A DNA stretch of 52,773 nucleotides from a virus. The stretch covers positions 1 through 52,773 of IMG/VR virus record IMGVR_UViG_3300044675_003531; one strand, given 5' to 3'. The position numbers were made by a program, and so were the translations under genes. Below the pieces are notes generated by a model. That model worked only from the letters and a program-made list of their open reading frames with translations. It was not told where the DNA came from and made no database searches. Below are positions 18,416-32,094 of the stretch, piece by piece (position 1 is the stretch's first letter; the number at the start of each line of letters is the position of its first letter).

Positions 18416-18420
18416 ACAAA

Positions 18421-18445: not shown

Positions 18446-18450
18446 TCTCT

Positions 18451-18684: not shown

Positions 18685-18685
18685 G

Positions 18686-19201: not shown

Positions 19202-19203
19202 CG

Positions 19204-20025
19204 TTATTCTCCTCTCACACGGCGCAGGGCGGCGATAGCACCCTCCGTGATGTCCATGACCGCTTCCTGTGCAGTCGGCTTGGTTGTCGCTGTTCCTGTG
19301 GTGGCCGCGCTCCAGTGGTTCCACAGGCTGTTCATCGTAACCATCTCACGCTTGGCCCATTTGCGTATCAGGTTCTCTGTTGACTGTCGCACTTGGTCCG
19401 GCGTGATGTCTGCATGAGACATCTGGTAGGCGATGTGCTTGACTCGGTTCCACTCTCCCAGTGTGAACTCTGATGCAATGAGTTCAGGGTAGGCCGTCAC
19501 ACGGTAGGCCTCGAATATCAACCGTCCCGCATCATCAGGTCCGGGAAGTGCGGACTTCTTTATACTCTTAGTTCCTTGTGATTCTCGTTCCTTATGATTC
19601 TTGTTAATAGGGGTATCGTTTTTGATACCCTCCACCCTACTAGATTTGATACCCTCCCCCGTATCACTTTTGAAACCCTCCGCATCCGGAAACAGGATGT
19701 ATCCGTTGGATGTCTGCCGCCCAGATGCATCGTGTCGGACCTTCTTGGCGAGGACCTTGGAACCGGAAATGGTTATGTTGCACAGGCTCTCAATCGACCG
19801 TCGCACCGTTGCTTCCGAGAGGCCGGTAGTGGCCACCAACTTGCCCATACTGGGCCAGCAGAAGCCCGTGCTGTCCATGTGGAGGGCCAGCGTTGTGAAC
19901 ACCATCCAGTCGCTGGACCCGAACTCCTTCAGGTGCGGCATGATGGTGTGGTGAACCTGCACGAACGTATCAGCAGGCGTTGAATGCAACAGGGTCCGAG
20001 ACCCGCCATTGAATATAGAAATCAC
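19204..20025 (-). CDS. Winged-helix replication initiator-like protein
   Basis: 273 residues from a GTG at 20025 preceded by GAGGAGGAG with 8 nt spacing. Residues about 35-85 form a helix-turn-helix (SMGKLVATTGLSEATVRRS) of the type found in phage O-like and replisome organiser proteins. A Lys/Ser-rich linker (about residues 115-160) follows, then a C-terminal helical domain (about 165-245) with the layout of DnaD-like domains. It lies 3 bp after its upstream gene and 2 bp before the loader-like gene. It may bind the iteron arrays at 31.4-31.9 kb, though origins of O-like proteins often lie inside their own gene. Replication initiation is the best guess; a transcription factor is the alternative. 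Confidence 0.62.
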   Translation of the reverse strand: MISIFNGGSRTLLHSTPADTFVQVHHTIMPHLKEFGSSDWMVFTTLALHMDSTGFCWPSMGKLVATTGLSEATVRRSIESLCNITISGSKVLAKKVRHDASGRQTSNGYILFPDAEGFKSDTGEGIKSSRVEGIKNDTPINKNHKERESQGTKSIKKSALPGPDDAGRLIFEAYRVTAYPELIASEFTLGEWNRVKHIAYQMSHADITPDQVRQSTENLIRKWAKREMVTMNSLWNHWSAATTGTATTKPTAQEAVMDITEGAIAALRRVRGE

Positions 20026-20028
20026 GCG

Positions 20029-20628
20029 TCACTCTCCTCCTCGCGTTCTATGCGGACAGCCCTCACACAGGATGCAGTCCAGCCCGGTTGCCTCGACCTC
20101 CACCGAGTCTCCCGGGTTATTACTCTCGGCCTTCGCACGGGCCTTGGCGTAAGCCTCCAGCACCGTCTGGGCCTCGGCAGGCGTGATGCCCGCAGGAACC
20201 GTCACAGAGGCCGTAGAGCGGCTCTCACGGCCGGACAGGTGCTGTTGCAGGGTAGAGGCTGATGCCTCGTGTTCTATGGCCCATTGCAGCGCGTCCACTT
20301 GTTCATCCGGCGGCAGGCCAGCCACCGCACGGTGATGCGTCCAAGACAGGCCCTGTATCCGGTTGTGGACCGGAACGTGCTTGGATACCCAGACACAGTT
20401 GGCCAGCGTCTGATACGCCATGCCGGTCAGGTCCATCGCTTGGCTGTACTTCTCGCCGTAGGTTGCCTCGCCGTAGACCAGAGCATCCCCGATGGCGAAC
20501 TGGACCGCCGTGTCGAGGGTGGATAGGGTCTGCACGAGGTTCAGCCATGCGTCGTAGGCAAGCGGCCCTGTGAAGGTCAGCCCGACCGAGGTCAGGCTGA
20601 CGTTAGGGGTTGCTAGGATGTCACTCAC
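20029..20628 (-). CDS. Conserved phage protein with Cys-rich tail
   Basis: 199 residues from a GTG at 20628 that overlaps the stop of the upstream gene by 8 bp; no strong ribosome site is visible, so coupling is likely. The N-terminal 130 residues contain AIGDALVYGEATYGEKY, then a TGMAYQTLAN segment and SWTHHRAVAGLPPDEQ. I recall this order from a family of phage and plasmid proteins with YGE..YG, TGYSYQTLAN and SFSHH blocks and a ParB-like flavour, but know no function for it. The C-terminus has four closely spaced Cys/His (CILCEGCPH), a possible metal site. It lies between the Gam-like gene and the initiator-like gene, which suggests a DNA-related role. Confidence 0.7.
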   Translation of the reverse strand: MSDILATPNVSLTSVGLTFTGPLAYDAWLNLVQTLSTLDTAVQFAIGDALVYGEATYGEKYSQAMDLTGMAYQTLANCVWVSKHVPVHNRIQGLSWTHHRAVAGLPPDEQVDALQWAIEHEASASTLQQHLSGRESRSTASVTVPAGITPAEAQTVLEAYAKARAKAESNNPGDSVEVEATGLDCILCEGCPHRTRGGE

Positions 20629-21208
20629 TGCTGGACACCGTCGTAACCTTCACAGAGTTCCGCCCGGGTTCGATGGTGAAGCCCCACGGAGTGTTGGACT
20701 CGCCGAACTCGTTGCTCGCCCACCGTTCGATGAACGTCTCTGGAAGTTTAGATACCAGCACCGACTCGACGGTCTTGACCGACTCGGGTGCGTTCAACTT
20801 GGCCCACGCCACGGCAAGTTGTTGGTTGTCAACAACTACCTTGGGCTTGACCTCACGGAACGCGACCTGTCCCCACGGGCAGGTGTAGGTCTTGGTCCGG
20901 AACGTGCCATCCGGCTTGCGTGGAAGCAGGCCCTCGGCCACGTCGCTGGCACTCCGTTCGTAGCGTGCCTTGAGCCACTCCACGCGGCGGTTCTTCAGGG
21001 CCAGCATCTTCTCCACGTTCGCGACAACAGCCTGCAACCGCTTGGTCTCGGCCAGCACGTCAGCCTCGGCACTGCTCAAACGGTTGAGGTAGGCCAGCAG
21101 TTCCTCCTCTGTCTCCAGAGCGCGGTCCGGCAAGGTGCTGTTGGCTGGACCGGCATACTCGCCGGTCTCTGTGTCGAACAGGTCATCCCCGATACGTTCA
21201 ATTGGCAT
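20621..21208 (-). CDS. Gam-like host-nuclease inhibitor or DNA-end-binding protein
   Basis: 195 residues from the ATG at 21208; an ATG at 21214 in the same frame is equally well placed behind GGAGAAGGAG. Both starts lie inside the end of the upstream annealing-protein gene, so translation is coupled. Residues about 40-110 form a long coiled coil, followed by a beta-rich stretch KTYTCPWGQVAFREVKPKV and a helix with AWAKLNAPESVK. This layout matches the Gam-like or Gp157-like proteins that guard DNA ends in phage recombination cassettes. Its place next to a single-strand annealing protein supports that reading. Family assignment is from memory of pattern, without a search. Confidence 0.6.
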   Translation of the reverse strand: MPIERIGDDLFDTETGEYAGPANSTLPDRALETEEELLAYLNRLSSAEADVLAETKRLQAVVANVEKMLALKNRRVEWLKARYERSASDVAEGLLPRKPDGTFRTKTYTCPWGQVAFREVKPKVVVDNQQLAVAWAKLNAPESVKTVESVLVSKLPETFIERWASNEFGESNTPWGFTIEPGRNSVKVTTVSSSE

Positions 21209-21824
21209 TGCCATTCTCCTTCTCCAACTGTTGCAGGACGGCCTCGTACTCACTTGCAGGCACGTCGTACAGGGCCTTGGTGGCCTCTGTCAGATTCTCC
21301 ACCGTTCGCTCTGCGTTGTTGGTCAGCAGTGAGAACACCTCCTTGATGCGGGCACTGTCAGCATCCGGTTCGTGATGCTTGACCGCCGCACCAAACGCAA
21401 CGCCGGACCCCTTGATGTCAAGGACCTGCGGGCGTGGTGGGGTGGCACGCTTGAGTTCCACCGGAGCATCCACGATGCGCGGGTTGGCCACGCCATCGAC
21501 GACCTCGTCGAATTCGGGAGCGAACTGGGTTCCGTAGCCCAAGATACCCAAGGCGCGACCGATGGCCCCGGTCTCAGCCTTCTCCAAGTAGTCTGCGAAC
21601 CCTTTCGCATCCTCCATCTTGGTGCCTTCAGCAACGACCCTGCCTGTCGCATCGGTGATGGTTGCCTTGACGACGGCATACCTCTTCTCGATGCTGTGTT
21701 CGACAATCTGCGTGCTGATACCCCAGTCTGGATGTTCCTGTCGGAACCAGACCAGCCGCCACTTAACCTCGAGGTAGTCCTTACCCTTGAGGCTCATGAG
21801 TTTTTCGTTCGGATTGAACGCCAT
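21198..21824 (-). CDS. Rad52-like single-strand annealing protein
   Basis: 208 residues from the ATG at 21824, with AAGGAG 8 nt upstream. The N-terminal domain begins KGKDYLEVKWRLVWFRQEHP and continues with a VVKATITDATGRVVAEG hairpin, then the stretch DYLEKAETGAIGRALGILGYGTQF (about residues 79-102). EKAETGAIGRAL followed by GYGTQF is characteristic of phage Rad52/22-type annealing proteins. The C-terminal half is variable and ends in an acidic helix. It would coat and anneal single strands in phage recombination, working with the Gam-like protein whose gene overlaps its 3' end and perhaps with the nearby VRR-NUC nuclease. Confidence 0.75.
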   Translation of the reverse strand: MAFNPNEKLMSLKGKDYLEVKWRLVWFRQEHPDWGISTQIVEHSIEKRYAVVKATITDATGRVVAEGTKMEDAKGFADYLEKAETGAIGRALGILGYGTQFAPEFDEVVDGVANPRIVDAPVELKRATPPRPQVLDIKGSGVAFGAAVKHHEPDADSARIKEVFSLLTNNAERTVENLTEATKALYDVPASEYEAVLQQLEKENGNAN

Positions 21825-21881
21825 ATCGATTCTCCTTCAAACGGTATGACCCAGCCCTTGCGGGCCGGGTCGTCCAGTGTA

Positions 21882-22586
21882 TCACTCGCTACTAAGTCTC
21901 GCGAGGAAGTCCTCCTCTGCGTCCTGTCGGTGCGCAGGGTTCATGTCTACGATGCCCATCAGCGGGCAGAGTTTCCGGTCCACGTACAGGACGGGATACT
22001 CCGCAGCCAGCCGCAGGATGCAGTGCGCCTCAATGATGCAGTCGCCGACCAGCCGCTCGACATCGTGCCCGAGTTCCAGTAGGTCCTCAATCACCCCGTT
22101 GATGCTGCTGCCAGCAACCGGGACCGTGAGGTCGGTGTTGGGGATAGGCCGCTCGATGATGCCTGTGTCTGGGTCACGGGCGATGTAGAGCCATCCGTTG
22201 CGGACAGGTGCAGGCAGGCCGTTCGGAAACGCTAGTGCGTTCGTTGGGCTATGCGTTGAACACTCGAGTGCGACGACCTTGTTGCCGTTGTAGCGGATGC
22301 ACCGCCACGACTCAATCAGTTCGTAGACAGAGATGCCTTCGATGTTCAGGTCGTTGAGGTCCACCGCCGTGTCCAGTTTCCCGGATTCTTTCATGCGCTG
22401 GATGTCAGCGCGGAACCCCTCCGGACTGTCTGCCACGATGATGTAGACCCACGGGCCGACACGCTCGGTGATGCATCCGCCCGGGCTGTTCTTCGGCTTG
22501 CCGATGTAGACCTTGTCGGTGGCCGACTGGCTGAACACATAGTCCCAGCAGTCCACTTCGAGTTCAGGTACGTTGATTGATGCCAT
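21882..22586 (-). CDS. Unknown protein in the recombination cluster
   Basis: 234 residues from the ATG at 22586, with GGAGG 7 nt upstream. I do not recognise the family. It is a soluble mixed alpha/beta protein with several Cys (in GGCITERVGPWVYI and in a CIIEAHCILRLAAEY stretch) and an acidic C-terminus. It overlaps the end of the VRR-NUC gene by 23 bp and is followed, after a 57-bp gap holding a hairpin and a TGATACACTGG element at its stop codon, by the annealing-protein gene. Confidence 0.8.
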   Translation of the reverse strand: MASINVPELEVDCWDYVFSQSATDKVYIGKPKNSPGGCITERVGPWVYIIVADSPEGFRADIQRMKESGKLDTAVDLNDLNIEGISVYELIESWRCIRYNGNKVVALECSTHSPTNALAFPNGLPAPVRNGWLYIARDPDTGIIERPIPNTDLTVPVAGSSINGVIEDLLELGHDVERLVGDCIIEAHCILRLAAEYPVLYVDRKLCPLMGIVDMNPAHRQDAEEDFLARLSSE

Positions 22587-22980
22587 GCCAAACCTCCATC
22601 TGTTGCAGAACTTTGTCGATGCGGTCCACTCGGCTCTGCCTCCCGAGTGTCGCCTCCGCTCGCCGAACCTCGTGCAGTGCCTCTGCCACCGTTCGGACGA
22701 TAGTTGTGATGTGTGCGTCGGCCAGCGACTGCTGGACCGGGGTGACCGCCGTCTTAGGTCCCTTGAGTTCGAGGCCCACGGCCATGCCGAACCAGTCAGG
22801 GTGATGGACGTAGATGTCCGGCAGGCCGGGAGTGTTGCCCTGCCATCCGGTGGCGTACGTCTTGGCCCCGCAGGCTCGGCAGGTGACCTTGCTCCTACTC
22901 TTCCCGCTCTCCATCGCTACATAGCCAAGGGAAGCGATGGCGGTTGTTATCGCCTTCTGTAGTTCCGCCTCCGGTTTCAT
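22564..22980 (-). CDS. VRR-NUC type nuclease with zinc-ribbon
   Basis: 138 residues from the ATG at 22980, which overlaps the upstream stop as ATGA. A CRACG motif near residue 35 suggests a metal-binding knuckle. The core then shows NTPGLPDIYV, GLELKGPKTAVTPVQQSL and a C-terminal helix, matching the G-x-P-D, E-x-K and Q pattern of VRR-NUC (PD-(D/E)XK superfamily) nucleases, which cut branched or flapped DNA. In a phage it would resolve junctions or replace a RusA-type resolvase. The Asp of LPDI and the Glu and Lys of LELK are the likely catalytic residues. Its neighbours in recombination and replication support the call. Confidence 0.78.
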   Translation of the reverse strand: MKPEAELQKAITTAIASLGYVAMESGKSRSKVTCRACGAKTYATGWQGNTPGLPDIYVHHPDWFGMAVGLELKGPKTAVTPVQQSLADAHITTIVRTVAEALHEVRRAEATLGRQSRVDRIDKVLQQMEVWHGINQRT

Positions 22981-23065
22981 CCTTCGCAAGGACGTGCCTC
23001 ATCACCAGTATCACCGCCAACAACAGGCTCACGAACCCCGCCAGCCTTCGCACGTTTTGCTTCAC
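22895..23065 (-). CDS. Possible overlapping small membrane protein
   Basis: A 56-codon frame starts with GTG at 23065 behind GGGAGG with 6 nt spacing. It reads through the 3' end of one neighbour and the 5' part of the VRR-NUC gene in another frame. The product has a basic N-terminus (KQNVRR) and then a hydrophobic helix (GFVSLLLAVILVM), with a polar tail. A strong ribosome site plus a clean positive-inside membrane helix are unusual for a chance frame, but overlap with two confident genes lowers confidence. A lysis or membrane-modifying role is possible but not shown. Confidence 0.35.
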   Translation of the reverse strand: MKQNVRRLAGFVSLLLAVILVMRHVLAKDETGGGTTEGDNNRHRFPWLCSDGEREE

Positions 23066-23546
23066 CGTGTACCTCCCGCCATAAGTATTTCGAGATGTAT
23101 GACGGCCATCCCGTGCCGGATTGTTGGACCGCTCGGGACCATTGCGAGAACGTAGAAGACCGCAGGCACAGGCTGAACAGCCTGCTGTGCAGTAGGTCGG
23201 TGTATGCCAGCCGATAGGCAGGCAGGGCATCCTGCGACACGTCAGGCAGGCGGGCCTCCGAGAGTTCGGCCTGCGTGTGCGTCCGTCGGTACAAGTACTT
23301 GGTCAGTGCGCCGTCCTCCCATTCCGCGTGCATCATAACGATGCGGGGCATGGTGCCGTTCATGATTGTGCAGATGGCTCCCGGGCCACGGCGATGCGCC
23401 CGGCTTAGGTAGTACATCACCTGCGTGACACGGGCGGTTCCGATGCCTCGGACCACGAGGTCCTTGGCTGCTGCCATCGCGGAGTCCAGCGCAGCATCCG
23501 CACCGGAACGGTCAGGAGACCAGACGCTGTGCGTCCGGCCTCCCAT
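22977..23546 (-). CDS. Unknown soluble protein
   Basis: 189 residues from the ATG at 23546, chosen because GGAGACAACC precedes it, the same start leader used by many genes further upstream in this operon. A GTG at 23597 that overlaps the upstream stop (GTGA) would add 17 residues but has no good ribosome site. I do not recognise the family. The middle contains a helix with RVTQVMYYLSRAHRRG and a hydrophobic strand PRIVMMHAEW; the C-terminus is basic and then acidic. It overlaps the next gene by 4 bp. Confidence 0.72.
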   Translation of the reverse strand: MGGRTHSVWSPDRSGADAALDSAMAAAKDLVVRGIGTARVTQVMYYLSRAHRRGPGAICTIMNGTMPRIVMMHAEWEDGALTKYLYRRTHTQAELSEARLPDVSQDALPAYRLAYTDLLHSRLFSLCLRSSTFSQWSRAVQQSGTGWPSYISKYLWREVHGEAKRAKAGGVREPVVGGDTGDEARPCEG

Positions 23547-23593
23547 GGTTGTCTCCGTCTGCCATACACGGCTAAGGCCGCCGCTGTAGCCCT

Positions 23594-23839
23594 TCACAGG
23601 CCGAGTTCCCGCAGGTGCTGGGACACAACCCTGTAGTTGCGGTCGCCTTCCCGGGTTTCGATGTCAGCGCGGATGGCCTTCTTCTGGTCAGCCCACGCCT
23701 GCTCTTCAGCCACCAGCCTCTTGCGGAGCGCGTTGACTTCGTTCTTCTGCATCACGCCGATGGTGAAGAATGCGATACCGGCGAGGCATATGATGATGCC
23801 TATTTGTGCGTCTGGGTTGTTGATGAATTTCTTAAGCAT
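23594..23839 (-). CDS. Small membrane protein with coiled-coil tail
   Basis: 81 residues from the ATG at 23839, with AAGGA about 8 nt upstream and an 8-bp overlap with the upstream gene's end. A single hydrophobic helix (IGIIICLAGIAFFTIGVM, about residues 13-30) is followed by a charged helix with heptad character (NEVNALRKRLVAEEQAW). This topology is common in phage spanin-like and other membrane-anchored small proteins. No lipobox or holin signature was seen, and the endolysin lies elsewhere, so the role stays open. Confidence 0.75.
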   Translation of the reverse strand: MLKKFINNPDAQIGIIICLAGIAFFTIGVMQKNEVNALRKRLVAEEQAWADQKKAIRADIETREGDRNYRVVSQHLRELGL

Positions 23840-24251
23840 TTTCGTGTTCCTTGTCTCTCCACGAGTCCAGTGAAATGTCAGCCTCTGGCTCCTCTGAAAC
23901 ATCCTCGCTGACGGCCGCCTCAATCCTTGCGATGAACGATGGGATGTCCACCGCCCCTGTGTGGAACGCGTCGTAGGTTCCTTCCCAGAGCGTCTCCGTC
24001 AGGATAGCCTCGGTATTGTCCTCCGCCCATGACGGGGAGAACGGGTCGCCCGAGTTGTTGTGGAGCCGTTCGACCTTGGCGGTGAAGGTTGCCCGGCCGT
24101 ACTGGACCCGGGCGGTAAACGTCACCCGCAACCGTGAGCCGTTGCAGACGCAGTGGGCATGGCGCGTGGCTTCGGTGAGCGTGGTGAACCGGACGATGCT
24201 GGATGCGACCGCCGCCGAGTTGGCGATGTCGCAGATGTCATTTACTTGCAT
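23832..24251 (-). CDS. Unknown protein with acidic C-terminus
   Basis: 139 residues from the ATG at 24251 behind AGAGGAG (9 nt spacing). The first half has a Cys-containing stretch HAHCVCNGS and beta-strand-like RVTFTARV repeats; the last 35 residues are strongly acidic (SEDVSEEPEADIS). The family is not recognised. Upstream lies a 54-bp spacer with two partial copies of the sequence GATA-x-x-CTGGGCCACA, one of the repeated elements of this operon. Confidence 0.75.
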   Translation of the reverse strand: MQVNDICDIANSAAVASSIVRFTTLTEATRHAHCVCNGSRLRVTFTARVQYGRATFTAKVERLHNNSGDPFSPSWAEDNTEAILTETLWEGTYDAFHTGAVDIPSFIARIEAAVSEDVSEEPEADISLDSWRDKEHENA

Positions 24252-24305
24252 GATGTCAAACTCCTCTGTGGCCCAGTGTATCGCACTGGCACGGTGTGGC
24301 CCAGC

Positions 24306-24695
24306 CTATCGGCCGGGGATTGGTTTCAAAGTAACCGAGGAACCTTGCTCGGTCCGTCCGTCTGAAATGTTTACAGAGCAGAAATTTCCGGGGTGATTGT
24401 CGGACACGTCAAAGATGCGGACGGTGTGCTTGCCAACCGTGTAGGTGTGGAAGTGTGAATCAAAGCGGTCCGTCCCGATGAACGTAACATTCTCGGACTT
24501 GGTGAGGTCGAGGCCGACGAGGTCCGCGCCTTGGCGCAGGTAGTGCAGCCGGTATGCCTTGCGGGCGATACGGGAGGCCGTAGCGGCCACGTTGCGGCCC
24601 GCTGGGGTCATAGGTGTCTGCGGTTCGGACTTCAGCCAACCGTACTGGGACGTGCTGTTGTAGCGGATAACAACGCCAATGGTTCTGAATTTCAT
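24306..24695 (-). CDS. Unknown protein
   Basis: 129 residues from the ATG at 24695, behind CGGAGATACCT, a variant of the operon's GGAGAC start leader; an upstream in-frame start would have no ribosome site. The N-terminus (MKFRTIGVVIRYNSTSQYG) and the region TPMTPAGRNVAATASRIARK suggest a short beta/alpha protein; the C-terminal half is rich in His, Asp and Thr. No family is recognised. It sits between two small unknown genes in the GC-rich cluster. Confidence 0.75.
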   Translation of the reverse strand: MKFRTIGVVIRYNSTSQYGWLKSEPQTPMTPAGRNVAATASRIARKAYRLHYLRQGADLVGLDLTKSENVTFIGTDRFDSHFHTYTVGKHTVRIFDVSDNHPGNFCSVNISDGRTEQGSSVTLKPIPGR

Positions 24696-24754
24696 AGGTA
24701 TCTCCGTGAGGGTAAAAGTGTCCCGGTGTTTCGCCCCGCCGGGAAGGCACGGGG

Positions 24755-25156
24755 TCACAGGATGCGGGTCAGGGACCGGCAACCGACAACGTTCCCAGCG
24801 TCGTCCCGGATAAGGTCCCCGGGAACCAGCACATCCATCCGGCCCCGGATGCTGGGGTGGCTGGCCACCACGCTGGACACGATGTAGGCGACCTGCCCGC
24901 TGTGTGACTGGGCGGTTTCAGGCAGGGTGCATTCCTCTGTCTGTCGGACCCACTCGCCATCCTTGGACAGGATGCCGTCTGTCACAACGCGCTCGGCCTT
25001 GGAGCCGACCACGAGGACGTGCTGGCCGCAGACGAACAGGGACCCCACCGGCTCGGAAGCGGTGCGGACCCGGGCGATGCCGACGCTCGGGATGACGATG
25101 TCGGACGGGCCGATGATGGTGATGCTGTGAGGGGTCAGGTTGATAAGTGTTGTCAT
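24755..25156 (-). CDS. Conserved small protein of the LTPH family, function unknown
   Basis: 133 residues from the ATG at 25156, 7 nt after AAGGAG; an ATG at 25162 is too close to the ribosome site. It starts INLTPHSITIIG and ends with DVLVPGDLIRDDAGNVVGCRSL. This combination, N-terminal LTPHxIxI and C-terminal aPGD..RD..G...GCR.L, is one I recall from many phage and plasmid proteins of unknown function. The fold appears beta-rich, with a VAYIVSSVVA strand in the middle. Confidence 0.8.
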   Translation of the reverse strand: MTTLINLTPHSITIIGPSDIVIPSVGIARVRTASEPVGSLFVCGQHVLVVGSKAERVVTDGILSKDGEWVRQTEECTLPETAQSHSGQVAYIVSSVVASHPSIRGRMDVLVPGDLIRDDAGNVVGCRSLTRIL

Positions 25157-25200
25157 GTTCATACTCCTTGAATAGCCGCAGGGCGGCAGTGTGTGACGGT

Positions 25201-25395
25201 TCAGCGGGCTTGTTCGTAACCGTCGAACCAGCGGCCCAGACGCTTGGTGCGGGCCTTACCTGCGGCCTTGGTGCAGGTGCTGGAAGATGTCTCCGGGTCA
25301 GAGCAGTGGGCCTTGGCCTGCTCGAGGGTCAGCCCGGTGGCGATGGTGCGGCGGCGGATGTTGGCCGACTCGTAGAAGCGGATGATGTGATACAT
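25201..25395 (-). CDS. Small conserved protein of a type common in actinophages
   Basis: 64 residues from the ATG at 25395 behind GGAGATTTCACC. It reads YHIIRFYESANIRRRTIATG, then LTLEQAKAHCSDPETSSST and a basic stretch before GRWFDGYEQ. I recall very similar small proteins from actinobacterial phages (R-T-I-x-T-G-L-T-L-E-x-A-x-x-H-C followed by DPETSSST and a WFDGY ending), where no function is known. This is one of the few hints about host group in the window. Confidence 0.82.
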   Translation of the reverse strand: MYHIIRFYESANIRRRTIATGLTLEQAKAHCSDPETSSSTCTKAAGKARTKRLGRWFDGYEQAR

Positions 25396-25448
25396 GGTGA
25401 AATCTCCAAAGTGTCTGGCCCGGGCGGTGAACCCGGGCCGGGGTGATG

Positions 25449-25886
25449 TCAAACCTCGATGTCGTACTTGCGGCCAGCGTCCGCGACAGCCTTTTGCCAT
25501 ATCGGCTCGAACCACGCCTCAAGGCCCGTCCGGTCAGCCTCGGTGTCGGTGCGTGTGGACCAGTCAGATACCACGTCCGGGCCATCGTTCCCGTACACGA
25601 GGGATAGGGTCAGGAAGGTCATCGCGGTCCTGCCCTCCGGGTTGTCTACGGTTGCGAATGTCTCGGCCGGGAAGGAGAACATCAAATCCTGCACCTCAGT
25701 GTCGTGCATCCGGGCCTTGACCTCGTACCAGTCAGCCACCTTGCGGAACGAGTCCTCTTCGTCGCGGAGGGAAATCTTTGCGCGCTTGGCAAGTGCGGCG
25801 TATACAATCTGCCGCACCACAAAGTGTTCGGCGCGGACGCGGGTCTGGATGTCTGGGTGAAGGCCCAGAAGTTCGGAAGATGTCAT
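25449..25886 (-). CDS. Unknown acidic protein
   Basis: 145 residues from the ATG at 25886, behind GGAGACTTACACC. The N-terminal third is helical (TRVRAEHFVVRQIVYAALAKRAK); the rest is acidic with aromatic residues (EAWFEPIWQKAV). I do not recognise the family. It is flanked by intergenic hairpins on both sides (25417-25439 after it, 25924-25945 before it), typical of this gene array. Confidence 0.75.
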   Translation of the reverse strand: MTSSELLGLHPDIQTRVRAEHFVVRQIVYAALAKRAKISLRDEEDSFRKVADWYEVKARMHDTEVQDLMFSFPAETFATVDNPEGRTAMTFLTLSLVYGNDGPDVVSDWSTRTDTEADRTGLEAWFEPIWQKAVADAGRKYDIEV

Positions 25887-25960
25887 GGTGTAAGTCTCCG
25901 GCCCGTCAGGGCTGGGGGTCAGTGCCCCGGCCGTGAGGCCGAGGCGGGAGCAACGATGGC

Positions 25961-25971
25961 CCAGTGTATCA
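25961..25971 (-). promoter_or_regulatory. TGATACACTGG element, possible extended -10
   Basis: On the minus strand TGATACACTGGGCC overlaps the TGA stop of the gene ending at 25969. The same element recurs at 21874-21884, 24273-24282 (CG instead of TG) and, with two changes, at 28149-28159. TG-A-TACACT fits an extended -10 (TGnTAnnnT). The copies at 25951-25965 and 28139-28153 also share the next 15 bases. Promoter function is inferred from the pattern only. Confidence 0.35.
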
Positions 25972-26391
25972 CGACCGGGCGGGGCTATCAGGTGCCTCAA
26001 GCATCCCGTACCAGCCATCTGGGTCCAGAGCGGCCTGCACGGCGGCGACGTGTCCCTCGGCTACCATCCGGGCGTGCGCCCCCCAGTGTGGAGCGGACAG
26101 GACCGCGAGGGCATATGGCATCGTGTCGGCCGCGTACCATTGGCGGGCCAGCGCGTCGTAGTGTTCGACGACATCCTCCTGCACGGGGTCCAGCACGCCG
26201 TCGGGGATATCGCACGGAGCGTCAAACTCGGTCAGTTCGTCGTTCTGGCATACCAGCGTCTTGGGGCCGATGGCCACAACGATGCGGTCGGGCTTGGTCG
26301 TCGTGAGTATGAGCCACACGTCGTAGTTGGTTGTGAGGGCGGCCATGCGTTCGGCCTGTGCGACGTAGGGGGTGCGGCGGGTTATCCACAT
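25969..26391 (-). CDS. Unknown protein
   Basis: 140 residues from the ATG at 26391, with AAGGAGACAACCATC before it. It begins MWITRRTPYVAQAERMAAL, has strands YDVWLILTTTKPDRIVVAIG, then an acidic helix QEDVVEHYDALARQWYA, and ends with a Gly/Ala-rich segment. The family is not recognised. A perfect DnaA-box nonamer overlaps its start codon but is read here as chance coding sequence. Confidence 0.75.
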   Translation of the reverse strand: MWITRRTPYVAQAERMAALTTNYDVWLILTTTKPDRIVVAIGPKTLVCQNDELTEFDAPCDIPDGVLDPVQEDVVEHYDALARQWYAADTMPYALAVLSAPHWGAHARMVAEGHVAAVQAALDPDGWYGMLEAPDSPARS

Positions 26392-26447
26392 GATGGTTGT
26401 CTCCTTGGGGGTCAGTGCCCCCGGGGTGTCCGGGGGCTGGGGGGGTG

Positions 26448-26783
26448 TCAGAGTGCGGCGGCCTTGACGCGGATGTCGAGGCGGGCGGATGTCAGGAACG
26501 GCGGCAGGCCGGACGTTCCGGCGGCGAACCCGCGAGTGGTCCGCGCCCAGTTGTTCAGATACTCCCACGCCGCGAACTCGGACCGCACCGCGAGGTACCG
26601 GCGGGCACCGCTTGCGCGGTTCAGGGTCAGGGCGTAGCGGCCATCCGGCAGGGCGGCGGCCTCGGCCCATGTCCACTCGTTGCGGCGGGTGTGGAACACG
26701 GCCACGCCGATGCGATGCTGGCCAGCGGCCGTGAAGGACTCGTCTGTCTGGAACAGCCGGGCGGGCTTGCGGTAGGTTGTCAT
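26448..26783 (-). CDS. Unknown small protein
   Basis: 111 residues from the ATG at 26783, preceded by AAGGAGACACCTGAC. It contains NEWTWAEAAALPDGRYALTL, then SEFAAWEYLNNWARTTRGF. The pattern W-x-W, LP-x-G, L-x-N-x-x-R is loosely shared with the product encoded at 30373-30714 (RWTWSNRRHLPQGYEVWLT and LTNILRYG), so the two may be distant paralogues. Function unknown. Confidence 0.75.
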   Translation of the reverse strand: MTTYRKPARLFQTDESFTAAGQHRIGVAVFHTRRNEWTWAEAAALPDGRYALTLNRASGARRYLAVRSEFAAWEYLNNWARTTRGFAAGTSGLPPFLTSARLDIRVKAAAL

Positions 26784-26918
26784 GTCAGGTGTCTCCTTGG
26801 GGCGTTGCCCCGGGGTATGTGGCCCGCGTTCGGTCGGGCCGTTCGTGATGCAGCAGCACGGGGCTGCGGGGCTGCGGGGCGGGGAACTGGCATCGCCAGC
26901 CCCCAGTGCAGGCCGGGG

Positions 26919-28076
26919 TCAGGCCGCCTCTTGGGCGACCTCCTCCCACTTTGTCGGGCGGCTGAAGAATCCGAACCCGGGTTCCTTGGGTTCAACCGTG
27001 GCGGTGAACCGGACCGGGGTGCCAGCCTCGGGTGCAACCGCCGAACTTGGCAGGGAACCGTACAGGCGGAACCCGTCGCATTGCACCAGCACCTTGGTCG
27101 TCCAGCCCCACTGGGTCTCGATGGACTTCGTGTTCAGGACCTGCCCGGTGATGGCACGGCGGCCATCCTGCGGGGTGACCAGCGGCGCGTCGGTCTTGGG
27201 GGCCGAGGTGGCCTTGCGCCATGCCCCGACAAAGTAGGCCACGCCCCGGCGGTCCAGCCAGCCATCGGCCTCCCAGCGTTCCATGATGCCCGGGGCATCG
27301 GCCATGGCCTCGCGGATGCTGGCCAGCACGGACCAGTCAGCGGCAGGCAGGGCCGACTCCAGCAGTTGGTCCGCGACCTTGGCCGCCTCCCAGACGATGC
27401 GCCATGTGGCGTTGGAGTTGGGGTTGCCATCGGGACCCTTGCTGGCCACGTAGGGCTGGCCATCCATCGATGCCAGCGCACGCAGGACCGTTTCGAGGCG
27501 GACCCACTTTGGCTCGTACCATCCGCCGCCGCCGCACTCGTCAGGGTCCCCGGTGCGGGACATGATGGCCGTTGCCTCGGCGAGGCTGGCCAGCGCAGAG
27601 CGCAGGGCGTTGGGGACATACTTGGCAACGCACGCGCCGCCGACTTGCAGGGCGTTGCCCATGCGGTCCCCGAGTATGACCGTGGTGTAGCGGGTGCGGT
27701 TCAAGCCGCAGGACTCGCAGGCGGTGTGGGTGTCCGGGAGCATGGCCATGATGGCGGCGGCCTCTGCGGCCGTGGTGCTAGGGCGGACCCACGACACCAA
27801 GGTGGCCTCGCGCTCGCCGAGGTACCGCCACCCAGCGGTCAGGTCGATGTCGGGTATGCCGACGGTGACGGGGACCACGGCCACGGTCCAGCGGGCGACG
27901 GGGACCTGCTCGAACCGGCCGCGTGCGCCCTCCTGCATCTCATAACGGGTGACGCGCAGGGGTTGCTCTTCACCGACGGTGATGGTCAGGCCGGGGATGC
28001 CTGCGGCGGCGCGGCGGAGCAGGGCCTGCACGCGGGTCAAGTTGTCGGGGGTGACTTTGTAGGTTGTCTCGGTCAT
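26919..28076 (-). CDS. Zinc-ribbon containing phage protein, function unknown
   Basis: 385 residues from the ATG at 28076 with GAGACACTGACC upstream, the local start leader. Residues about 120-155 read CESCGLNRTRYTTV, then GNALQVGGACVAKY. The spacing C-x2-C-x4-R and then VG-x2-C is one I recall from a widespread phage/plasmid family in which two Cys pairs form a zinc site next to a VG-x-x-C loop. The C-terminal 90 residues look like an OB-like beta domain (RRAITGQVLNTKSIETQWG, RLYGSLP, PVRFTATVEP). It is the largest protein of the GC-rich cluster. A nucleic-acid-binding role is plausible but inferred. Confidence 0.8.
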   Translation of the reverse strand: MTETTYKVTPDNLTRVQALLRRAAAGIPGLTITVGEEQPLRVTRYEMQEGARGRFEQVPVARWTVAVVPVTVGIPDIDLTAGWRYLGEREATLVSWVRPSTTAAEAAAIMAMLPDTHTACESCGLNRTRYTTVILGDRMGNALQVGGACVAKYVPNALRSALASLAEATAIMSRTGDPDECGGGGWYEPKWVRLETVLRALASMDGQPYVASKGPDGNPNSNATWRIVWEAAKVADQLLESALPAADWSVLASIREAMADAPGIMERWEADGWLDRRGVAYFVGAWRKATSAPKTDAPLVTPQDGRRAITGQVLNTKSIETQWGWTTKVLVQCDGFRLYGSLPSSAVAPEAGTPVRFTATVEPKEPGFGFFSRPTKWEEVAQEAA

Positions 28077-28190
28077 GGTCAGTGTCTCGGGGCTTGCGGC
28101 CCGGGGGGTCAGTGCCCCAGCAGAGCCGGGGCGTGGTGCAACGATGGCCCAGTCTACCATCAGGCGGACCGGGCTGGCCAGTTCGGCGGG

Positions 28191-28436
28191 TCAGACTTGC
28201 TCTGGGTCCCAGACCTCGCGGCATCCGGGGTTCGCACATCGGAGTTCGCCGGTTTGATGCCCGTCGGTTCCGACGGCGTGCGGCACTGGGCCGTCGCAAG
28301 CGCAGAACGGGCAGGGCCAGCCCCAGATGCGCTGGGAGGCGGTGCGGCGGCTCTTGGGTGCGGAGTGGGCCGCGACGCAGGCGGCGGTGTAGGTGCGATA
28401 GGTGCGGCCGGTGGCCGAACGGCGGGTTTCAAGCAT
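28191..28436 (-). CDS. Small zinc-ribbon protein
   Basis: 81 residues from the ATG at 28436, with GAGGAG 8 nt upstream. Four Cys in two knuckles (CPFCAC near residue 42 and CANPGC near residue 67) suggest a zinc ribbon, preceded by a basic N-terminal half (RRSATGRTYRTY). It could bind nucleic acid or a protein partner. No specific family is recognised. Hairpin 28460-28480 lies just upstream. Confidence 0.75.
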   Translation of the reverse strand: MLETRRSATGRTYRTYTAACVAAHSAPKSRRTASQRIWGWPCPFCACDGPVPHAVGTDGHQTGELRCANPGCREVWDPEQV

Positions 28437-28492
28437 GAGAATTCTCCTCGGGAAGAAAGGCCCCGGCGGGCGGCCGGGGCAGGGTCAGCGGG

Positions 28493-29023
28493 TCAGAACT
28501 TGCGGCGGGCCGAGAAGCCCAGCGATGCGCCGCGATACTTGGGAGCCAGCGCGGTGTCGGTCAGCCCCGGCGGCAGGACGGGCCGCTGTTCGAGTTCGCC
28601 GGTCAGCGACATGGCCCCGACATCGTGGCGGTAGCCATCGCGGTACCGGGGGGCCAGCCGAACGGTCAGCCGATACTCGAGTTGGACCCCGTCAGGGGTG
28701 GCCGAGGTCCACTCCAACTGCCAGTGGATGGACCGGAGCGGGAGGGTGCTGGTTTCGATGGGCCCGTCGCCGGATGCGACGCTGGCGGCGGCCTTGGCGG
28801 TCATGTCGTCGATGCTCTCGGGTTGCGCCCAGATGACTCCGGAGTATCCGGCCCGCTTGGGTGTCACGCCCTCCGGCAGGGCGACCGTCGCGAAGAAGTG
28901 CCGGGCCTCGGTCATGGCCAGCAGGATGCGCTCTGGGGTCAGCAGGCGGCGCAGAACGGTCAGAGCGGACGCAGGTGCGGCCACGCCGCCAAACTTGCTA
29001 TCGTGGGTGTCGATGTCGAACAT
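28493..29023 (-). CDS. Unknown protein
   Basis: 176 residues from the ATG at 29023, with GGAGACAACCCACT before it. It begins with an acidic stretch (FDIDTHDSKFGG), then a helical part (LTVLRRLLTPERILLAMTEA), a beta-rich C-terminal half (RSIHWQLEWTSATPDGVQL, YRLTVRLAPRY) and a basic tail. No recognised family. Confidence 0.75.
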   Translation of the reverse strand: MFDIDTHDSKFGGVAAPASALTVLRRLLTPERILLAMTEARHFFATVALPEGVTPKRAGYSGVIWAQPESIDDMTAKAAASVASGDGPIETSTLPLRSIHWQLEWTSATPDGVQLEYRLTVRLAPRYRDGYRHDVGAMSLTGELEQRPVLPPGLTDTALAPKYRGASLGFSARRKF

Positions 29024-29119
29024 AGTGGGTTGTCTCCAGCCCGGTCAGGGGCGGGGGTCAGTGCCCCGGCAGGACCGGGGCGGGGGCGGCGGGAACTGGC
29101 ATCGGCCAGCGGGCGGGGC

Positions 29120-29452
29120 CTACTCGGCCACGATGTCGTCAAGCAGGACCGTGTCGGTCCCGCCGTCAGGGTTGGTGGCAGCCCGGGGGGCGACCAGAGC
29201 ATCGGCAATGCCACGGGCCACGGTGGACCGGACCAGCGGATGCAGCCGGTATCCCTCGAGAATGGCCTGCCCGTGGTACCGGGAACCGTCAAGGGCCGAG
29301 ATGGCCACGCGGCCGAACCGGCCATCAAGGGGGCCGTGCGGGTCCCGCAGGTTCTGATTGACGGCCTTGGTCACGAGGCCAGCAACGCGGGAGGCATCAG
29401 GGGTGCGGCCGGTCAGGTCGCCCCGGTCGTTGTGAACATAGAACATCGGCAT
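29120..29452 (-). CDS. Unknown small protein
   Basis: 110 residues from the ATG at 29452, 9 nt after GGAG in the leader GGAGACACGCACC; a second ATG at 29446 is possible. It contains FYVHNDRGDLTGRTPDASRV and a C-terminal acidic end (TVLLDDIVAE). No family recognised. Two hairpins (29467-29481 and 29494-29511) stand directly in front of it. Confidence 0.72.
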   Translation of the reverse strand: MPMFYVHNDRGDLTGRTPDASRVAGLVTKAVNQNLRDPHGPLDGRFGRVAISALDGSRYHGQAILEGYRLHPLVRSTVARGIADALVAPRAATNPDGGTDTVLLDDIVAE

Positions 29453-29517
29453 GGTGCGTGTCTCCAGCCCCCGGCGGGGGCGGTGGGGTAGGTGCCCGGG
29501 GCTGGCCGGGCGGGGTT

Positions 29518-29598
29518 GACTGATAGGGCTTGCCATCATCAGATGCTGGGGGGCCACCCCAGACACGACCCCCGGGCGGGGGTTTCGGCAGGTCAGCG
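29518..29598 (-). repeat. Copy 1 of an approximately 82-bp intergenic direct repeat
   Basis: Begins GACTGATAGGGCTTGCCATC and ends TTTCGGCAGGTCAGCG; the second copy is at 30282-30364. Inside are two hairpins: CTGGGG-GGCCA-CCCCAG (29546-29562) and CCCCC-GGGC-GGGGG (29569-29582). In the other copy both hairpins keep position but use different paired sequences, which points to selection for RNA or DNA structure. Confidence 0.8.
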
Positions 29599-29823
29599 AT
29601 AGAAGCGGGTCAGGGCCTCGGTCGTGGCCTTGGAACTGGCATCGGCCCGGGTGGAGAGTTCGGAGCCGATGTAGGTCAGGACCCAGACGGTCGCGACCAG
29701 CGAACCGTACCAGCCCCAGTGCCCCTTGACGTGGAGCAGGATGCTGACCGTGGTGAGCAGGTGAACGATGGCCACCGTCAGGGCGGCGTGCAGAGTGTTG
29801 TCGGAAATACGGGTGATGCGCAT
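29593..29823 (-). CDS. Small two-helix membrane protein
   Basis: 76 residues from the ATG at 29823 behind CCGAGACATCTGCC. Two hydrophobic segments, ALTVAIVHLLTTVSILL (about residues 14-30) and GSLVATVWVLTYIG (about 40-53), are joined by a short polar turn, with a basic and polar tail. The size and topology would fit a class II holin, but it lies in the early operon far from the endolysin, so another membrane role is as likely. Confidence 0.75.
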   Translation of the reverse strand: MRITRISDNTLHAALTVAIVHLLTTVSILLHVKGHWGWYGSLVATVWVLTYIGSELSTRADASSKATTEALTRFYR

Positions 29824-29901
29824 GGCAGATGTCTCGGGGCCGGATGGCCCGGGGTCAGTGCCCCGGGGTGAACCGGGGCGGGAGGGGCGAGGTGCGGCAG
29901 G

Positions 29902-30219
29902 TCAGGCCTGCGGGGTGGAGGTGTCCACGATGGCCCAGCCCTCGGCGGCGGCCGCGTCGAATGAGCGGACGGCTGCCACCACGGTGCGATACAGGGCGCG
30001 GGGGTGGAGTTGGACCGCCGAGAGGGTGATGGCGGCGAGGTCCTGCCCGCCGTGGCGGAGGGTCAGCGTCACCGGCGGGAGGGCCGGGCCGGTCCAGCGG
30101 ACGGTGGAGGAGCGCAAGACCTGATTGACGCGGAACGCAACCGCGCTCGGCAAGTTTTGGGTGACATAGGATGTTGCGCCGTCGAAGGACGCGATGCGGA
30201 CGGTGAACGGGTTCAGCAT
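29902..30219 (-). CDS. Unknown small protein
   Basis: 105 residues from the ATG at 30219, with GGAGACTCCGCATC upstream, a leader identical over 14 bases to that of the next upstream gene. It contains strands VRIASFDGATSYVT and VTLTLRHGGQDLAAITL and a helical C-terminus. The family is not recognised. The shared leader and a direct repeat on its upstream side suggest that this gene and its neighbour arose by local duplication of a cassette. Confidence 0.72.
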   Translation of the reverse strand: MLNPFTVRIASFDGATSYVTQNLPSAVAFRVNQVLRSSTVRWTGPALPPVTLTLRHGGQDLAAITLSAVQLHPRALYRTVVAAVRSFDAAAAEGWAIVDTSTPQA

Positions 30220-30281
30220 GATGCGGAGTCTCCGGCCCCAGAGGGGCGGGGGGTCAGTGCCCGGGGCTGGCCGGGCGGGTG

Positions 30282-30364
30282 GACTGATAGGGCTTGCCAT
30301 CGTCAGGCATCAAGGAGCCACCTTGACACGACCCCGGGGCGGCCGGGGTTTCGGCAGGTCAGCG
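30282..30364 (-). repeat. Copy 2 of the approximately 82-bp intergenic direct repeat
   Basis: Matches 29518-29598 at both ends. The internal hairpins are TCAAGG-AGCCA-CCTTGA (30310-30326) and CCCCGG-GGCGG-CCGGGG (30332-30348). The first stem differs from copy 1 at most positions on both arms yet still pairs fully. Confidence 0.8.
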
Positions 30365-30372
30365 GGTGCGGC

Positions 30373-30714
30373 CTACTTGTTGGCCCAGAGGGTGGCCAGC
30401 AGGGCGCGGACGACACGGTCAGGGTCAGGGCTGGCCATCAGGGTGTCGGTGTCGATGTCCACCGTGCCAAGGAGGGTGGCACCCTGCCAGAGGCTAATGG
30501 ATGTCGCGGTGCCCGGGATGGGCTCGGCACCGTAGCGCAGGATGTTGGTCAGGCGGGTGATGGTCCGGAGGCCAACCCGGCTGAAGATGTCAGCCAGACC
30601 GGGCCGGGCGGTCAGCCAGACTTCGTAGCCTTGCGGGAGGTGGCGGCGGTTGGACCAAGTCCAGCGGCCGGTGGATGCTTCGAGGTGTGCGAATTCGCGG
30701 GTCAGGTTTTGCAT
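30373..30714 (-). CDS. Unknown small protein
   Basis: 113 residues from the ATG at 30714 with leader GGAGACTCCGCATC. It contains GRWTWSNRRHLPQGYEVWLT and TITRLTNILRYG, and ends in an Asp-rich beta stretch and a helix (RVVRALLATLWANK). It may be distantly related to the protein encoded at 26448-26783. No function can be assigned. Confidence 0.73.
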   Translation of the reverse strand: MQNLTREFAHLEASTGRWTWSNRRHLPQGYEVWLTARPGLADIFSRVGLRTITRLTNILRYGAEPIPGTATSISLWQGATLLGTVDIDTDTLMASPDPDRVVRALLATLWANK

Positions 30715-30781
30715 GATGCGGAGTCTCCAGAGGGGGATGGCCCGGGGTGAACCGGGCCGGGGTTGTCGATGCGGGGAGGGC

Positions 30782-30994
30782 TTAGAAGTCGCCGCCAGCC
30801 GAGATGACCCGCTCACCGGGGGCGGCGATGGTGTAGAGGGTTGTCGGTACACCGTAGGTGGCGAGGTAGTCTCGCTCAGCACGGGCCTTGACTACCTCGG
30901 CGGTCGCCCTATTGTGGCACTTGACGACGACCAGCGGGTAGCCGCTTGGCGAGAGGACTGCAACGGCGTAGGTTGGAAGGGTGATGGTTGACAT
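30782..30994 (-). CDS. Unknown small protein, first gene of the leftward operon
   Basis: 70 residues from the ATG at 30994, with GAGACAACCGACAACC upstream, a longer variant of the operon leader. It begins TLPTYAVAVLSPSGYPLVVV, then a basic helix TAEVVKARAERDYLATYG and a short C-terminal strand. No known family. Being the promoter-proximal gene, it should be among the first expressed. Confidence 0.7.
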   Translation of the reverse strand: MSTITLPTYAVAVLSPSGYPLVVVKCHNRATAEVVKARAERDYLATYGVPTTLYTIAAPGERVISAGGDF

Positions 30995-31371
30995 GGTTGT
31001 CGGTTGTCTCAGGGCACGAGGGCCCGGGGTCAGGGCCAGTGGACTAGACTGGCAGGGTGTAGGTTTCGCGGTGCTATCCGCCGGGGCCGGGTCAGGGCTC
31101 ATCAGGTGGCCAGCATCAGGCCACGACATGGTTTCCAGCAGGTCCCGTGGAGGTGTTGATATCACCTATCTGCTGGTACACCCCGCCACACGGTGGAGGG
31201 TGTCTCTTATGGTGCGGGTCGTTGCATCGATTGAGGGGGGCCGAACGGCCAAGGTGCCCGGGATGGGCTAGGGAGAGGATGCTACCGCGTCTAGGATAAA
31301 GTGCCGAACCTGCCGGACCCGCGAGGGGTCCCAACCGCGACCCAGTGGACTTGGCCACCGGACACAGGAAC

Positions 31372-31401
31372 ACTCTACTCGGACCTGGTGGCCCAGTGCA
31401 A
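31372..31401 (-). promoter_or_regulatory. Possible leftward early promoter
   Basis: On the minus strand TTGCAC (31401-31396) and TAGAGT (31377-31372) are 18 bp apart, a weak fit to -35 and -10 boxes. They lie just downstream of the iteron array in the transcription direction, where a promoter for the operon that begins at 30994 would be expected. The fit is poor and other sites are possible. Confidence 0.22.
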
Positions 31402-31410
31402 GCATAGTTG

Positions 31411-31479
31411 TTGACACTCATTGACACTCATTGACAGTTATTCACACTTGAGTGCGCTGTTGATAGTTATTGACACTCA
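31411..31479 (+). repeat. Iteron-like array A, 10-bp units TTGACACTCA
   Basis: Units at 31411 and 31421 (both TTGACACTCA), 31431 (TTGACAGTTA), 31441 (TTCACACTTG), a degenerate unit at 31451, then 31460 (TTGATAGTTA) and 31470 (TTGACACTCA). The 10-bp period places all units on about the same face of the helix. The pair at 31460-31479 is repeated in inverted orientation at 31863-31882 with 17 of 20 matches. Confidence 0.82.
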
Positions 31480-31764
31480 CATTTATTTTGTTTAGTGATG
31501 TGAAGTATTTCAGAGGGCTGTGGAACCGATGCGGGACCGGGGCGGCAGTGTCCGGGACCGATGGCAGGGCGGCAGGATGCAGAGGGGAGTTTTTGAGGCA
31601 TAGTAGGAATCGCACACGTCACACGCATGACGCGTCACACACACGCACGTACACACGGGCACACACGCGCACGCGTTGGGATAGAACGCACGCACACGTA
31701 CGAGCAGGCGCAACGCGCCTGCGAGTATGCGAGCGCGTAGCGCGAGCAGGCTCCGGGGCTGCCA

Positions 31765-31820
31765 CCAAGCAGAGGTGACAAGAATACAAGGGGGCCGTTT
31801 CACACCAAGATGAGGTGACA
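31765..31820 (+). repeat. Two 16-bp direct repeats CCAAGnnGAGGTGACA, first pair
   Basis: Copies at 31765-31780 (nn is CA) and 31805-31820 (nn is AT), starting exactly 40 bp apart. A second pair with the same 40-bp spacing is at 32039-32094. Fourteen of the 16 positions are invariant in all four copies, which suggests binding sites for one protein. Confidence 0.85.
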
Positions 31821-31840
31821 GCGTCGCAGGGCTATGTTGC

Positions 31841-31882
31841 AACAAGTATCAACAAGTATCAACGAGTGTCAACAACTATCAG
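31841..31882 (-). repeat. Iteron-like array B, inverted relative to array A
   Basis: On the minus strand the units read CTGATAGTTG, TTGACACTCG, TTGATACTTG, TTGATACTTG, with a fifth degenerate TTGCAACATA further on. They are the same 10-bp family as array A in opposite orientation, about 360 bp away. Inverted flanking arrays are typical of origins or of looping regulatory sites. Confidence 0.8.
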
Positions 31883-32038
31883 AACAGAGGGGCAGTTATT
31901 ACCCGTACGATAGCAACCCCGCTGTATGGGCCCTGTGTGGCCTCACAGCCCTACCCGTCAGAGTCAGCCCACGCCCGGCTGGGGACCCCCTTTTATAATA
32001 GGGAGAACAACTGTTTGAGGACTCCAAATCGCAGCGCA

Positions 32039-32094
32039 CCAAGGCGAGGTGACACCCCATTGGCAAGCCCCCGCCACCCCAAGGCGAGGTGACA
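32039..32094 (+). repeat. Two 16-bp direct repeats CCAAGnnGAGGTGACA, second pair
   Basis: Copies at 32039-32054 and 32079-32094 are identical (nn is GC) and start 40 bp apart, matching the spacing of the first pair. They lie between a TATAAT at 31994 and the extended -10 promoter at 32196. Confidence 0.85.

Follow-up and report, generated by a model that had tools for sequence, protein, structure and literature searches.

Why should a virus place much the same hairpin leader before one small gene after another? The question is raised by an IMG/VR virus record of 52,773 bases (IMGVR_UViG_3300044675_003531; the whole record is called the window here), which encodes a large terminase, a portal and a major head protein, and whose GC content is about 47% except at 18-32 kb, where 70% is reached. 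This GC-rich stretch is a minus-strand operon of small genes, and since it runs on into a gene whose resemblance to Mu Gam is uncertain (its match is below the Pfam cut-off) and then into that of a replication initiation protein, the operon is probably early. A preliminary description of the window had pointed to hairpins and to a shared GAGAC before most genes of this operon, and had proposed that structure is what is kept. The results of this work bear that out: the leader is a start-associated RNA element common to four related phages, with a stem conserved across them by pairing and not by sequence, and its anatomy (elements, positions, pairing, covariation, conservation in relatives) is well supported. 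Two of the leaders, moreover, contain predicted self-cleaving ribozymes.

The start itself is the simplest part. GAGAC lies 4-11 nucleotides (nt) before the ATG at 11 of the 17 starts of the early operon and at one of the 22 of the plus-strand late genes, against a background of 2.7% among all sense-strand 16-mers of the operon. All ten starts first listed with (G)GAGAC do have it, and so does that of gene 23546, further downstream (genes are named here by the position of their start; Table 1). As the first G of GGAG is absent before 28076, 29823 and 30994 (CGAGAC, TGAGAC), conservation extends beyond a plain Shine-Dalgarno core. The sequence ACTGACCCC has six occurrences on the minus strand and none on the plus strand: exact copies precede genes 25886, 26391, 28076, 29023, 29823 and 30219, and variants of it precede 29452, 26783 and 30994.

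In the window, a hairpin (A), a YGACC tail and the ribosome-binding site are repeated in this order before about eleven genes. Two GC hairpins stand before genes 30994, 30219, 29823, 29452, 29023, 28076, 26783 and 25886, and a single one before 30714, 26391 and 25395; hairpin A is 21-27 nt from the start where hairpin B is missing and 36-41 nt where it is present. The stems are mostly of 6-9 base pairs (bp) and variable in sequence. Because this DNA is so rich in GC (about 73%), few leaders are significant when folded singly. As a group, they are more stable than shuffled sequence of equal composition, with a mean z of -1.27 for intergenic folds, whereas coding windows taken from these genes give +0.06 (Mann-Whitney p 5e-5), and the best stem per leader gives, against shuffles, joint Fisher p values of 3e-8 in the window and of 5e-17, 2e-10 and 1e-11 in the relatives G011, G032 and G009. 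The hairpins earlier described as one or two GC-only stems before most genes are thus real as a group, their stems being GC-rich but not strictly GC-only, and the span assigned to them (24.7-31.0 kb) holds for most of its length, the full element being missing at 24.7-25.2 kb. A pairing of the form GGGG-CACUGA-CCCC, which could act as a switch with hairpin A in some window leaders, was dropped, as it is not kept in G011.

Comparison with relatives needed a detour. No named relative emerged from nucleotide and protein comparison against 50,697 phage records, and an IMG/VR scan with leader pieces of 14-20 bases gave matches that were unspecific or absent. A nuclease-like gene, downstream and shared (22989-22564), was used as query instead and retrieved 46 related loci. 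In three related phages (G011, G009 and G032, or loci L127, L108 and L270), an operon resembling that of the window has a hairpin before nearly every gene, with stem sequences differing from those of the window, so such elements do recur in related phages. The tails are ACTGACC in the window, ACCGACC in G011, CCCGACC in G009 and ATTGACC in G032, YGACC being common to all four. Position is kept too: of the 14 G011 leaders measured, 13 have a hairpin that ends 23-25 nt short of the start codon, and in 10 of 12 G032 leaders the stem stands 21-26 nt away from the start. In G032 the polarity of the stem is reversed, with the G-rich arm first, compared to the window and most of G011, and still it pairs and retains its tail and position.

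Pairing was also followed through a covariance model, R1, built from 28 leader copies. It finds eight leaders in the window and 16 in G011, as expected by construction, all on the operon strand and before starts, and beyond these just one weak match each in G032 and G009 in 1.07 Mb. Two-sided changes are seen in six of the seven pairs of the model alignment, with a covariation score of 0.322 against 0.073 +/- 0.026 when shuffled and a maximum of 0.145 when slid; MAFFT had misaligned some left arms in one alignment (A2), and a structure-fitted one (A4) was therefore also counted. The covariation check is thus positive and, together with the varied stems of four phages and the reversal in G032, agrees with the earlier view that the stems differ in sequence whilst their pairing is kept.

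What precedes hairpin A is, in two leaders, a type II hammerhead. The blocks before genes 30219 and 29452 had been seen earlier as structured hairpins, which they are; only here are they recognised, by RF02276, as hammerheads, with E-values for the window genome alone of 1.9e-6 (30356-30287) and 1.3e-6 (29590-29523). Both surfaced in a permissive Rfam search alone, that at the gathering threshold giving no match. The unconstrained minimum free energy (MFE) fold of both copies is the three-stem type II fold with stems I and III loop-closed, in the order UGCC/GGCA stem II, GAAA, GC stem III, GUC, stem I and CUGAUGA or CUGACGA; the type II core order (GAAA, stem III, UH, stem I, CUGANGA) is intact, and the only core difference between the copies is the free N of CUGANGA. 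Their stem I differs by compensatory changes (U-A to A-U, G-C to A-U). GGC in loop I is able to pair with GCC downstream of stem II, and a contact of loop I with sequence beyond stem II is known for type II hammerheads (PMC3088659). The second copy starts about 3 nt past the upstream stop codon. By model and fold, then, both are type II hammerhead ribozymes and would presumably cut in vivo. No other Rfam class of self-cleaving RNA matched by covariance model up to E 10 in 22.5-32.5 kb.

The first leader of the operon has a type III candidate (31127-31063), with the core and a stem I of 6 bp, a stem II and an inner stem III of 2 bp each, and a possible outer stem III, GGCGGGGUGUA/UACACCCUGCC, with an inserted hairpin; the MFE fold contains the outer helix and stem I, whilst forcing the hammerhead core costs 11 kcal/mol. 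At the matching position, in their own first leaders, G011 and G032 have clear type III hammerheads. With a descriptor that called for stem I, stem III and an intact core, 11 of this type were detected, all of them in seven relatives (G011, G032, G041, G060, G061, G068 and G069), with none elsewhere in 4.05 Mb on both strands (a total that includes some mutually overlapping sequences) and none in shuffles. Type II hammerheads occur in five of these (G041, G060, G061, G068 and G069), that of G041 scoring 37.5 bits, above the RF02276 gathering cut-off. The seven relatives together have 16 hammerheads, which share a location at the upstream end of the equivalent operon; nearly all are in sense and 10-74 nt before a start codon, with one at 130 nt from an automatically called start. 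The Rfam type III search (RF00008) missed the G011 and G032 ribozymes, both of which the relaxed descriptor found; the miss in G011 is probably due to an extra UU between A9 and stem II. The G032 ribozyme (L270 1509-1594, plus strand) has, in its predicted fold, two small hairpins in place of stem II. Matches of a type II descriptor in L049 and L061 looked like chance and were discarded, and a canonical type II hammerhead of 61.7 bits lies in an unrelated viral contig fetched by a leader 14-mer (L240 8171-8237, plus strand).

In G011, promoters seem to take the same place. All of its six best sigma-70-like matches on the operon strand fall within leaders, five of them with an end lying 9-18 nt upstream of hairpin A; transcripts started there would therefore begin with the hairpin, or nearly so. 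The window has two putative extended -10 boxes upstream of hairpin A, neither of which scored as a promoter, and as such they are suggestive only.

The reading that we consider probable, with some reservations, is that of a modular 5' leader which, with a ribozyme or promoter upstream, lets early genes be independently initiated or processed into 5'-protected messages. The leader would have a constant order toward the gene: hairpin A, YGACC tail, optional hairpin B, GGAGAC ribosome-binding site and start codon. Its upstream side would host devices that make a new RNA 5' end, either hammerheads or, in G011, sigma-70-like promoters, whose expected start is within a few nucleotides of hairpin A. 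A long early transcript may in this way be cut by ribozymes and, with internal starts added, be resolved into messages of one or a few genes, each opening with a stem-loop (and a 5'-hydroxyl after a ribozyme cut) that could hinder 5'-dependent decay and keep the ribosome site of the new gene apart from upstream sequence. After a type II cut, the downstream message would begin with stem I and a 5'-OH, whilst the upstream product would have the stem III hairpin and a 2',3'-cyclic phosphate at its 3' end, possibly protecting it. Cutting in vivo, use of the promoters, protection and the effect on translation are what we infer. Control of translation or message processing, as first suggested, gains support from the association with starts and from the hammerheads or promoters, and could be the function.

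Several points weigh against this. Both window type II ribozymes, at 33.3 and 32.6 bits, are under the Rfam gathering cut-off of 37 bits, which is a curation threshold and not a structural feature; in both, A9 and stem II are separated by an extra U that may slow cutting, a reported precedent being an extra core nucleotide in a viroid hammerhead (De la Pena and Flores 2001); and the window's type III candidate is a weak one. Most leaders of the window lack both a ribozyme and a convincing promoter, and hairpin B is not seen in G011, G009 or G032. The hairpins were preselected for pairing before covariation was counted, which inflates the covariation score; the fixed spacing and the polarity reversal between phages are free of this bias. 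Lastly, a scan of genome contigs with a terminase alignment gave no relative that would point to a host and its decay enzymes.

The main rival, which we think unlikely, is that hairpin A and YGACC form a shared RNA operator, through which a phage or host RNA-binding protein switches the translation of early genes jointly, as T4 gp43 does on its own message. It would account for a tail conserved across four phages whilst stem and loop vary, and for the fixed spacing of hairpin and start, and it has a precedent in the T4 gene 43 operator hairpin, about 40 nt upstream of the start (PMC3014915). Such a protein would, however, meet a different stem base in different phages (GCC/GGC in the window and G011, GGGG/CCCC in G032), no candidate for it is identified, ten upper-operon proteins have no Pfam match above cut-off, and the ribozymes or promoters beside the element would be left unexplained. 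T4 RNA operators and RegB do resemble the present case in acting on early genes at the ribosome site, with a hairpin upstream of the start in gene 43 and with GGAG sites (PMC3014915); they differ in that no regulator of RegB or gp43 type is identified here. RegB-type cutting at GGAG was rejected, as GGAGAC departs at its sixth position from the consensus GGAGRAYARAA (PMC3014915).

It is improbable that the main role of the hairpins is to protect the 3' end of the upstream gene's message or to terminate it weakly, in the manner of hairpins of the repetitive extragenic palindrome (REP) type. They do sit between a stop and the following start, stem III of the type II ribozymes would lie at the 3' end of the upstream product, and the hairpin before gene 28436 resembles an intrinsic terminator. 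This last one, excluded from the leader family for that reason, is the only leader hairpin with a T-rich stretch after it; the other leader hairpins have no U tract as an intrinsic terminator would, and terminator-like sites in the window region are no more frequent than in shuffles (3 against 3.8). Against this reading stands G011, where the distance from hairpin A to the ATG has a standard deviation of 1.2 nt and that from the upstream stop one of 9.0 nt, so that the element is tied to the start and not to the stop.

Still less credit can be given to the leaders being recombination cassettes, i.e., repeated GC-rich homology for the shuffling of early genes, with a secondary role as RNA. Leaders are kept between phages whilst early genes mostly are not, the window and G011 having only one early gene in common among those compared above the conserved block, and the two window leaders that contain ribozymes share about 81% identity over 157 nt. 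Shared leaders with differing genes fit modular exchange, but stems that vary and yet pair serve RNA structure and harm homology, and the ribozyme cores are kept. That the hairpins are a by-product of 70% GC and GAGAC a mere Shine-Dalgarno site is hardly credible, the poor significance of single folds being outweighed by the joint tests, the fixed spacing, the covariation, the relatives and the ribozyme matches.

Among the closest known systems are the hammerheads of prophages; that they cluster around phage genes, and that they may cut the transcripts of phages, was proposed or known before this work (Perreault et al. 2011, PMC3088659). As there (RF02276, RF00008), the hammerheads are of types II and III, several per phage, in sense, between operon genes and with the same core, including the possible pairing of loop I with the tail (GGC with GCC); here they have the extra U (window) or UU (G011), score below cut-off in the window, have a predicted cleavage, and are joined to a repeated start-associated hairpin leader. 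The preliminary description had named as best parallel, with a different sequence, the start-associated sequences (SAS) and extended start-associated sequences (ESAS) of cluster K phages, repeats with inverted repeats near starts (Pope et al. 2011, PMC3203893). Where that paper deals with them, they recur at the ribosome-binding site of many non-structural genes, in related phages and different gene families, about half with an inverted repeat just upstream (PMC3203893). The parallel holds for position, since the present leaders too lie just before starts of non-structural genes. It does not hold for sequence, as was rightly anticipated: the SAS consensus GGGATAGGAGCCC, with up to two mismatches and 3-7 nt before starts, matches once, on the plus strand, which is not that of the operon, with 0.77 expected, and is thus not enriched. 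Nor is there an imperfect 17-bp inverted repeat of conserved sequence of the ESAS type, the stems here being shorter and varying. In the same parts of the source, ESAS arms are a conserved 17-bp sequence and ribozymes or promoters are not described with them (PMC3203893), whilst the arms here vary and keep pairing; both its sequence and the behaviour of its arms set the present leader apart from ESAS.

A third likeness is to the stem-loop stabilisers of the ompA type. Work of 1992 by Emory, and by Bouvet and Belasco, is said to have found that 5'-terminal stem-loops stabilise mRNA in Escherichia coli. These too are stem-loops near an RNA 5' end and upstream of the ribosome site, and the G011 promoters lie just before theirs; here, by contrast, the stem-loop is repeated before each gene of the operon, and would have a stabilising role. 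We know of no earlier case in which leader, ribozyme and promoter are used jointly, the individual parts being of known kinds.

We would advance only tentatively the wider proposal that the module of stem-loop, YGACC and ribosome site, with interchangeable makers of 5' ends (promoter, type II or type III hammerhead), splits the early operon into separately stable and separately translated messages. If true, it would amount to a phage-wide grammar of RNA processing, which a dedicated phage factor might read, and phage hammerheads would gain a definite task; common as these are in phage and bacterial DNA, two papers call their purpose unclear or unknown (PMC3088659, PMC10085705). With positions that are conserved (the first early leader, followed by later ones), a repeated companion element and several relatives, this lineage makes the cutting of early transcripts into gene-sized, end-protected messages testable with short transcripts.

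Table 1. Leader elements and neighbouring features of the early operon, in the direction of its transcription; positions are those of the window.
Feature	Positions	Strand	Basis or remark
(G)GAGAC-bearing starts	30994, 30714, 30219, 29823, 29452, 29023, 28076, 26783, 26391, 25886, 23546	minus	4-11 nt before ATG
Candidate type III hammerhead, first leader; GUC, then stem I, then CUGAUGAG...CGAAAC	31063..31127	minus	RF00008 17.4 bits, E 0.017
Hairpin A of gene 30994, then CCTGACCCC	31035..31053	minus	
Hairpin B of gene 30994, adjoins TGAGAC	31012..31025	minus	sequence
Hairpin A of gene 30714, no hairpin B, 24 nt to ATG	30739..30758	minus	
Type II hammerhead ribozyme 1, leader of gene 30219, predicted cut after C30330	30287..30356	minus	RF02276 32.6 bits, E 0.0015
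Hairpin A and ACTGACC of gene 30219	30249..30282	minus	R1 31.2 bits
Hairpin B of gene 30219	30235..30247	minus	MFE
Hairpin A and ACTGACC of gene 29823	29850..29883	minus	R1 43.2 bits
Hairpin B of gene 29823	29837..29850	minus	MFE
Type II hammerhead ribozyme 2, leader of gene 29452, predicted cut after C29567	29523..29590	minus	RF02276 33.3 bits, E 0.001
Hairpin A and ACCTACC of gene 29452	29484..29517	minus	R1 31.3 bits
Hairpin B of gene 29452	29468..29480	minus	sequence
Hairpin A and ACTGACC of gene 29023	29053..29085	minus	R1 38.8 bits
Hairpin B of gene 29023	29039..29052	minus	sequence; whole-leader MFE pairs the stretch differently
Terminator-like hairpin GCCCCGGCCGCCCGCCGGGGC-CUUUCUU before gene 28436	28460..28480	minus	GC hairpin and T-rich stretch
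Putative extended -10 box (TGG-TAGACT), upstream of hairpin A of gene 28076	28151..28156	minus	sequence; no -35 match
Hairpin A and ACTGACC of gene 28076	28104..28136	minus	R1 33.0 bits
Hairpin B of gene 28076	28090..28102	minus	sequence; MFE pairing slightly different
Hairpin A-like and ACATACC of gene 26783	26811..26844	minus	R1 26.4 bits
Hairpin B (GGGGCAACGCCCC) of gene 26783	26811-26799	minus	sequence
Hairpin A and ACTGACC of gene 26391, no hairpin B, 25 nt to ATG	26407..26441	minus	R1 35.0 bits; z -3.0
Putative extended -10 box (TGA-TACACT), upstream of hairpin A of gene 25886	25963..25968	minus	sequence; no -35 match
Hairpin A and ACTGACC of gene 25886	25914..25949	minus	R1 35.7 bits
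Hairpin B of gene 25886	25901..25912	minus	MFE
Hairpin A of gene 25395, 21 nt to ATG	25417..25439	minus	

Other repeats accompany the operon. GATRCCAGTTCC has four exact minus-strand copies in the window (26883-26894, 29092-29103, 29632-29643 and 16255-16266), several of them within leaders, with 0.45 expected when one mismatch is allowed, and two copies in G011 (L127 4521-4532 and 8753-8764). Upstream of the operon, TGTCACCTCNNCTKGGTG has three exact minus-strand copies (31763-31780, 31803-31820 and 32037-32054), and a close form of it has four in G011 (L127 11470-11486, 11528-11544, 11711-11727 and 11754-11770; 0 expected); it looks like an operator or repeat array. Iteron-like short direct repeats of the GTGTCAATAACT / TGTTGATACTTG kind, also upstream of the operon and on the minus strand (about 31410-31500 and 31850-31880), are a possible origin or regulator site.

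The GC content rises sharply to the hump of 70% at about 18000-32000, and an equivalent hump is present in G009 and G011. The G011 operon encodes an ArdC-type anti-restriction protein (L127 4876-5835, minus strand; Pfam), as does, apparently and judged by eye, G032 (L270 about 4034-4940, plus strand). Outside the operon, a single reading frame of 5,539 amino acids spans 1796-18415 on the plus strand, nearly a third of the record.

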